DNA from: Gottfriedia acidiceleris
GTDB lineage: Bacteria; Bacillota; Bacilli; Bacillales; Bacillaceae_G
Direction of reading: 5' to 3'
Assembly (NCBI RefSeq): GCF_002128425.1
Contig: NZ_NESS01000005.1
Coordinates: 1-64,000, forward strand
Length of the DNA: 64,000 nt
Numbering within the stretch: position 1 is the first letter of the stretch; each line of letters starts with the position of its first letter. The position numbers and the translations under genes are program-made. This document shows positions 1 to 370 of the stretch, in pieces. A model generated the notes under the pieces. It ran no database searches. It saw nothing but the letters and a program-made list of their open reading frames with translations, and had not been told where the DNA came from.

Positions 1-126
1 ATCCTGTTACCCCTGTCGACCCTGTTACTCCTCTTTCTCCAGTTGAACCTGTTGGCCCATTCGATCCTGTTACCCCTGTCGACCCTGTTACTCCTCTTTC
101 TCCAGTTGAACCTGTTGGGCCATTCG
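1..126 (-). repeat. 63-bp tandem repeat in collagen-like tract (2 copies)
   Basis: Bases 1-63 and 64-126 are the same 63-bp unit with a single base-order difference near the end (GGCCCATTCG against GGGCCATTCG). Each unit encodes 21 residues, seven Gly-X-Y triplets, in the collagen-like frame on the minus strand. The unit probably continues beyond the window. Length variation by unit gain or loss is typical of bacterial collagen-like genes. Confidence 0.9.
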
Positions 127-370
127 ATCCAGTTGATCCCGTTACTCCAGTCGGCCCTTGAGGACCAGTTTTACCTCTTTTACCTCTTGGACCTCGACAG
201 CATTTTTCACAACATTTACAGTCCTTACAATCCTTACATTTGCATTTCTTACATTTGCATTTCTTACATCCTTTACACTTACAGTCCTTACATTTGCATT
301 CCTTACAATCTTTACACTTACACTTCTTACAATTACAAGATTTTCTATTTTCTTTATTTTCTTTCCCCAA
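1..370 (-). CDS. Cys/Lys-rich collagen-like protein (partial, C-terminus beyond window)
   Basis: The reading frame opens with TTG at 370-368, preceded by AAAAGGTGA at 375-383, and runs off the window start. An in-frame TAA lies upstream with no ATG or GTG between, so TTG is the only plausible start. Residues 12-58 contain 20 cysteines spaced as CxC and CxxC with Lys and Asp between them, ending in CCEKCC. From residue 60 the protein turns into Gly-X-Y triplets rich in Thr, Ser and Pro ([16 protein letters not shown] and on). Collagen-like Gly-X-Thr tracts are known in exosporium and surface filament proteins of Bacillus (BclA family). A metallothionein-like Cys block in front is not part of BclA as I know it. 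Function is unknown; a metal-binding or disulfide-crosslinked spore-surface protein is inference. The C-terminal domain is not visible. Confidence 0.82.

Follow-up and report, generated by a model that had tools for sequence, protein, structure and literature searches.

The start of contig C41 of Gottfriedia acidiceleris (G000) carries the 5′ part of a collagen-like filament gene whose product begins with a short head rich in cysteine and lysine, joined directly to a Gly-X-Y stalk. The gene is located on the minus strand of the 64,000-nucleotide stretch analyzed here (the window), base 1 of which is also the first base of the contig (G000:C41:1-64000). The frame, 370..2, encodes 123 residues, is initiated by TTG and runs off the window start (Table 1). 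Judged from its sequence and from those of its relatives, this TTG-started, Cys-headed frame is a real gene. We favor, with modest confidence, a reading in which its product is a spore-surface, BclA-like filament that is anchored by disulfide crosslinks of the head. Among spore collagen-like proteins, a Cys-rich N-terminus is already known in a version with 5 Cys; the long Cys/Lys version, with 12–27 Cys, appears to be new.

The initial annotation placed the gene on the minus strand with a TTG start at 370, described 20 Cys with CxC/CxxC spacing in residues 12–58 and let the Gly-X-Y tract begin at residue 60. Strand, coordinates and start are all correct, as is the opening of the 123-residue ORF at the edge, and the Cys block and its junction are confirmed by count. 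The spacings comprise 7 CxC, 10 CxxC and 2 CC, and Lys, which makes up 22 of the 59 head residues, precedes 10 and follows 15 of the 20 Cys. Such a density of Cys is far beyond chance: across the 36 ORFs of the window that encode 200 or more residues, Cys accounts for 0.73% of residues and the densest 47-residue stretch contains 5, against 20 of 47 in the head (binomial P for at least 20 of 47 ~1.6e-30). AlphaFold2 leaves residues 1–75 without structure (mean pLDDT 42.6), and no signal peptide is seen by eye in the N-terminus of the window protein. Further frames that overlap this gene (e.g., 43–438 on the plus strand and 142–387 on the minus strand) are taken as mechanical ORFs.

Table 1. Filament gene, upstream elements and neighboring gene at the start of the window.
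Feature	Coordinates	Strand	Remarks
Collagen-like filament gene, 5′ part	2..370	-	TTG start at 370; open at contig edge
Cys/Lys head, residues 1–59	194..370	-	No predicted fold (AlphaFold2)
Cys-dense span, residues 12–58	197..337	-	20 Cys; CKCCEKCC at end, then RGPRG
Gly-X-Y tract, residues 60–123 (64 residues in window)	2..193	-	Pfam Collagen, E 1.1e-10
Shine-Dalgarno-like element AAAAGGTGAT	374..383	-	Before TTG; AAAGGTGAT core identical in 5/7 orthologs
SigK-like promoter candidate ATC-N17-CATAGTATT	437..465	-	Likeness to published SigK promoters (available text of PMC4750369)
Terminator-like hairpin	551..572	-	Between upstream methyltransferase gene and filament gene; 1 found vs. 0.5 expected in shuffles
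Class I methyltransferase-like gene, neighbor	582..1406	-	Immediately precedes the filament gene in L009 and L010 as well; Pfam on L009 copy

The organization of the whole gene is visible in Gottfriedia luciferensis (G004), where the ortholog (L009) is a single frame of 1358 residues comprising head, stalk and C-terminal domain (CTD; Pfam Collagen on the protein, E 2.4e-171). The stalk consists of 1162 Gly-X-Y residues, with Thr at 371 Y positions, and all Cys of the protein are located in the head. At 0.28 nm per residue, as stated in the available text of PMC11952670, a stalk length of ~325 nm is computed. The CTD of the window genome is found on another contig (G000:C11, L077), in a 511-residue frame that is open at the contig start and contains 377 Gly-X-Y residues (C11:3-1133) followed by the CTD, with Cys absent throughout. 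Downstream of this CTD, five genes have the same order and orientation as in L010 (G. acidiceleris, G001), and the upstream side of the window gene, with its methyltransferase gene and an RpiR-like gene (named by reading), is as in L009 and L010. On this synteny, C11 very probably carries the 3′ half of the window gene. The extension past base 1 proposed by the initial annotation very probably places the C-terminal half on C11, while the C41-C11 join spans a gap between contigs and is itself drawn from gene order. The related concern, a stop codon just outside the window, can be answered only in part: the contig starts at base 1, and the matching 3′ half on C11 is joined by synteny. Head and CTD occur together in six genomes (G000, G001, G004, G009, G010, G011), only one of which, G004, has them in one frame on one contig; G001 has a frame change inside the repeats, which may be biological or an assembly error, and in the other four the gene is split over contigs. 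The window genome contains more collagen-like frames near a run of N (L078:1-2224, on G000:C43), one with a Pro-rich N-terminus. C43 was discarded, as the scan of fetched loci for Cys heads listed none on it.

The CTD has no Pfam match above cut-off, no NCBIfam match and no PDB sequence match. Its structure model is all-β (pLDDT 79, pTM 0.73), and a Foldseek search with the model gives 38 matches at E ≤ 0.001 among the best 50 of 1779. Those listed are mostly birnavirus VP2 jelly rolls; the remaining matches at E ≤ 0.001 are to Bdellovibrio Bd1399, to phage tail/baseplate chains and, with a single chain, to the TNF-like lectin BC2L-C, with the lectin PLTL and Pgp3 just above E 0.001. TMq is 0.29–0.61 across the 38 matches, and BclA is not among the best 50 of 1779. 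The predicted fold supports assignment to the jelly-roll class, with no close relative indicated. In a sample of the order, the CTD profile matches 25 of 397 genomes, in 14 of 135 genera. In these 14 genera this jelly-roll-type family, for which neither a Pfam nor an NCBIfam entry was found, caps long collagen-like frames, several of them open frames of more than 1000 residues.

Outside Gottfriedia, the CTD is mostly combined with a different head. Eighteen non-genus copies were fetched, of which five are not readable to the head (L112, L113, L120, L123, L126), and head starts were set mechanically. Ten of the 13 readable heads are without Cys, and the others contain 2 (L117), 4 (L118) and 9 (L127). 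An NGGFE(T/S)G-like motif is present in at least seven of the ten Cys-free heads, and the Cys-free head of L110 gives only a sub-threshold match in Pfam (CBM_4_9, E 0.056). The start of L111 is set too late, yet the 90 residues before its stalk contain no Cys; in L122, head and CTD are in different frames. Because most of the readable non-genus heads are Cys-free, the Cys/Lys head most likely replaced another head type in the Gottfriedia lineage (lineage-specific head swap). Possible intermediates toward it are the heads of L118, with CKKCGHKKCQC followed by a Lys run, and L127, with zinc-ribbon-like Cys spacing.

Within the genus, the head is found in 7 of 13 genomes, the window's own counted, including L049, L016 and L056 of Bacillus sp. 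AFS088145, AFS055030 and AFS041924 (G009, G010 and G011). The CTD is also found in 7 of 13, six of which carry the head too; G012 has the Cys/Lys head on a 182-residue frame and no CTD, and G005 retains only a CTD remnant of 107 residues. Since all six genomes that are missing the head gene possess CotZ, the gene is dispensable. The non-ATG start is borne out by the orthologs: TTG opens the head in 7/7 and AAAGGTGAT directly precedes it in 5/7, making it unlikely that the Cys block arises from a wrongly chosen start, as the initial annotation had considered. Together with the third-position bias and the heads being open in all seven orthologs, the TTG starts speak against a translation artefact, a reading that was rejected.

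The seven heads are 44–82 residues long, with length changes in frame, and contain 20, 19, 27, 25, 20, 15 and 12 Cys. Ten Cys and nine Lys columns are invariant, and CC is present at the head-stalk joint in all but L087. Over all pairs, nucleotide differences at aligned codons are distributed 394:123:72 among positions 3, 1 and 2, and at aligned Cys the codon is unchanged 235 times, replaced by a synonymous one 88 times and by a codon for a different residue 41 times. Codon differences over the head are 235 synonymous and 235 nonsynonymous (all pairs); with half of them nonsynonymous, the head changes fast, although these counts depend on an uncertain alignment of repeats and the sequence pairs are not independent. 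Equal numbers of both kinds of differences, length variation by in-frame units and the absence or decay of the gene in several genomes would be expected of a functionless Cys/Lys tract that expands neutrally by (TGYAAR)n slippage. Mixed TGT/TGC and AAA/AAG codons and the third-position bias argue instead for old, constrained repeats, as do the ten invariant Cys columns, and neutral expansion is highly improbable.

A profile of the Cys block, the check suggested in the initial annotation, recovers real, orthologous heads that are confined to Gottfriedia apart from one weak match. Of the 19 genomes searched in the family, it matches 7, every one a Gottfriedia; in samples drawn from the larger order and phylum, it matches 8 of 397 (the seven genus members and G336) and 1 of 398 (the window's own genome), respectively. 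The match in G336 (E 8.4e-4) was rejected, as it runs through the collagen start and the G336 head, with 4 Cys, lacks a Cys/Lys block. A mobile origin was likewise dismissed, the head having no tblastn match at E ≤ 1e-5 in 72,556 plasmid and 50,697 phage records.

Upstream of the Shine-Dalgarno-like element, the core of which is altered in L056 and L087, the promoter candidate is retained in part. In 7/7 orthologs, CATANNNT is located between −73 and −76 relative to the TTG (in shuffles it falls within this interval by chance in 9%), and in 7/7 the 17-nt spacer is preceded by C, the −35 dinucleotide being TC in five, AC in one and GC in one. The published SigK promoters of bclA and bclB read CAC-N16-CATATGTTA and AGC-N16-CATATAATT (available text of PMC4750369). 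The paralog in G. acidiceleris G001 has AC-N16-CATATGTTG, close to the bclA promoter; CATANNNT is not found upstream of the G012 paralog. This weak match hints that SigK may control the gene. The hairpin suggests that the filament gene is a separate transcription unit. Sigma-70 promoter matches were discounted (4 found, fewer than the 6.2 expected).

BclA, the exosporium glycoprotein of the Bacillus cereus group, has no signal peptide and is attached by a leader peptide that docks to ExsF. To our knowledge, fibers are fastened to spores by this leader peptide/ExsF route and by ENA connectors. In Gottfriedia an unfolded Cys- and Lys-rich tag of 12–27 Cys takes the place of the head that, in related proteins from other genera, is mostly free of Cys; this suggests that fibers can also be anchored in a second way, by chemistry alone. 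The idea is testable in an ordinary soil genus, and possible uses are in spore display and self-crosslinking protein fibers. Like BclA, the filament protein has a Gly-X-Thr stalk, together with a C-terminus predicted to be of jelly-roll type and a SigK-like promoter candidate. Unlike BclA, it has a 20-Cys head in place of the exosporium leader, a stalk that reaches 1162 residues in L009, and a CTD that does not match BclA_C by sequence. At E ≤ 10, NCBIfam lists 5 families for the window protein, none of which is the exosporium leader (TIGR03720, named in the available text of PMC11952670); BclA_C (PF18573) is not matched at E ≤ 1 by the L009 CTD, and the C11 CTD has no NCBIfam match. Of the earlier comparison with the BclA family, the architecture with its collagen stalk therefore holds, and membership by sequence does not.

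In the disulfide-anchored filament that we favor, the C-terminal TNF-like jelly roll probably nucleates the trimer, the long Gly-X-Thr stalk would form the fiber and the disordered head would be its foot, proximal to the spore. Since no signal peptide is apparent, synthesis would take place in the mother-cell cytoplasm, where the head would be reduced and perhaps hold metal. Upon deposition and oxidation, the 12–27 thiols per chain would form many intermolecular disulfides, both with neighboring heads and with the Cys-rich coat/exosporium lattice (CotY/CotZ-type proteins), and the fiber would be welded on with no need of the ExsF-docking leader peptide. The CotZ family occurs in 13/13 genus genomes, and thiol partners are thus present. 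The Cys count is odd in 4/7 heads, which fits intermolecular pairing. N-terminal tethering of a mother-cell product also agrees with the orientation published for BclA and ENA fibers. Precedents are found in the available text of three papers: a disulfide tether of a spore fiber via N-terminal Cys has been proposed for S-ENA/Ena1C, with mutant support (PMC12921279), S-ENA connectors contain intersubunit disulfides (PMC8619143), and disulfide-hardened spore lattices are decorated with collagen-like proteins (PMC7333573). The lattice proteins ExsY/CotY and CsxA resemble the filament protein in being spore-layer proteins that harden by disulfides, but they form the lattice themselves, whereas here the Cys would be part of a terminal tag on a filament (PMC7333573). 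Of the two roles proposed in the initial annotation, crosslinking of a filament, which fits the odd Cys counts and the ENA and lattice precedents, is the best reading, and metal storage is kept as its rival.

The Lys of the head may add transglutaminase (isopeptide) crosslinks or charge. The transglutaminase (Tgl) family is present in 13/13 genus genomes, with two matches in 11, which makes lysine crosslinks possible. Attachment could even be driven by lysine, with the head serving mainly as a Tgl or electrostatic anchor and the Cys being secondary; 22 Lys in 59 residues and nine invariant Lys columns, next to ten of Cys, point this way, as does the presence of Tgl throughout the genus. Such an anchor would leave the Cys unexplained, and the number of Tgl copies does not follow the presence of the head (two copies occur in the headless G002, G005, G006 and G007). 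A primarily lysine-driven attachment is very unlikely.

Metallothioneins have CxC/CxxC spacing, Lys next to Cys and no predicted fold, and the head resembles them in each of these respects. The Lys-Cys density, which exceeds the need of disulfide chemistry and recalls metallothioneins, speaks against the disulfide reading. A head that would bind Zn, Cu or Cd in metallothionein-like clusters, and store or scavenge metal on the spore surface, is also consistent with the Lys that follow most Cys of the window head, with the absence of F, Y, W and H from its Cys span (0–3 such residues in the other six heads), with the lack of a predicted fold when no ligand is present and with the addition of His in paralog heads (e.g., CDCHCRDCHSC). 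However, the head differs from metallothioneins in its fusion to collagen and in a Cys number that varies from 12 to 27 with no fixed cluster pattern. Pfam gives 0 families at E ≤ 10 for 7/7 heads, and the 20 matches of the head to PDB sequences are all to ferredoxins (best E 0.062) and none to a metallothionein. What the initial annotation called metallothionein-like is apt for Cys spacing and Lys content; a family or structure match, for which Pfam, NCBIfam and PDB were searched at E ≤ 10, is absent. An oxidizing surface layer would also be expected to destroy thiolates. A metal-thiolate head is therefore unlikely, though metal binding in the mother cell may be compatible with later crosslinking, perhaps as a stage of the same process. 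None of the literature covered joins collagen-like proteins, metallothionein and spore coat, or collagen-like repeats and metal binding in spores.

The CC at the head-stalk joint of 6/7 heads recalls the CC motif of S/L-ENA and L-BclA, and the CC-bearing end might dock into ENA subunits as the tip or anchor of an ENA-type appendage. The available text of PMC11952670 describes a collagen-like spore protein with a 5-Cys N-terminus (AGE80398.1), a CC-bearing candidate for the S-ENA tip, and L-BclA, which forms ENA tip fibrils. As in these proteins, a Cys-bearing N-terminus with CC precedes the collagen stalk in the filament protein, and their C1q-type C-terminus may have a counterpart in the predicted jelly roll of the CTD. 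They differ in having 5 Cys rather than 12–27, the CTD is of a different family as far as profile searches tell, and Lys-Cys alternation is not mentioned in that text (PMC11952670). The ENA family (PF13157) is matched in 6/7 head-bearing genus genomes (weakly in G009 and G011), against 2/6 headless ones. The window's own genome, however, carries the head and has no PF13157 match, and the reverse is seen in G006 and G007, where ENA occurs but the head does not. The filament may have an ENA role in relatives, but such a role is difficult to maintain for the window genome; as a general account of the head it is decidedly doubtful. The initial view that a Cys-rich head on a spore collagen filament is unfamiliar has to be narrowed in the light of the 5-Cys precedent (available text of PMC11952670), and it survives for the 20-Cys Cys/Lys block. 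This block was not met in the available literature on spore collagen-like, cysteine-rich and exosporium proteins, a scope outside which many subscription papers and all bioRxiv preprints fall. Among the Gottfriedia papers covered, no title or abstract beginning concerns spores.

Cnidarian minicollagens, in which the Cys-rich domains attached to the collagen form disulfide crosslinks, provide a more distant parallel (available text of PMC4863159). Their Cys-rich domains occur at both ends and have identical patterns, in contrast to the single long, variable head described here (PMC4863159). In the L009 protein and the C11 part, no Cys is found outside the head, and the head pattern is variable; the likeness does not imply homology. 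A broader and speculative proposal, to which we assign a low probability, is that the head acts as a redox-switched anchoring tag. While the mother cell is reducing, it would be a disordered Cys/Lys polythiol loaded with metal; once the spore layer oxidizes, it would turn into a dense disulfide (and isopeptide) weld. Such tags would have been invented repeatedly by spore formers and exchanged among collagen stalks and C-terminal tips, giving bacteria a counterpart to the crosslinking of minicollagens.

Cys heads in Gottfriedia are not restricted to this gene. A second gene of G012 (L090:1453-2520) lies in an open frame of 368 residues, for which TTGGGGAAAGAA or an ATG four codons earlier may serve as start; its head has 12 Cys with CHC motifs, and the collagen stalk that follows leads to a different C-terminus. 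In G. acidiceleris G001, a head of a third type (L089, second piece at 1501) is encoded ~5.4 kb off on the other strand and is interrupted by a frame change; its second piece, used as query, is found in 2 of the 13 genomes of the genus, namely G012 and G001 itself. The three C-termini under Cys heads in the genus align with one another no better than chance. Because other Cys heads are found on two unrelated C-termini and the CTD has other heads in other genera, the head is a separable module, placed at the same end that holds BclA and ENA fibers. In the class sample, the G012 paralog head matches 1 of 398 genomes, with stops inside the match. G721, from this sample, was rejected: three stops lie within the match, and its three Cys-rich frames have no collagen tract.

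Cys-rich heads of other kinds occur further afield. A Turicibacter MAG (L043:5632-9019) contains three adjacent collagen-like genes with short Cys-rich heads, near spoVA-like genes (named by reading). G154 has a 2083-residue gene of the CTD family with a Cys-free head and, directly beside it, a collagen-like frame (L110:7306-7701) whose head is rich in His and Arg and contains 17 Cys; this frame is cut at the edge of the fetched stretch. By eye, the heads from Turicibacter and G154 are unlike the Cys/Lys block and would seem to be separate inventions.
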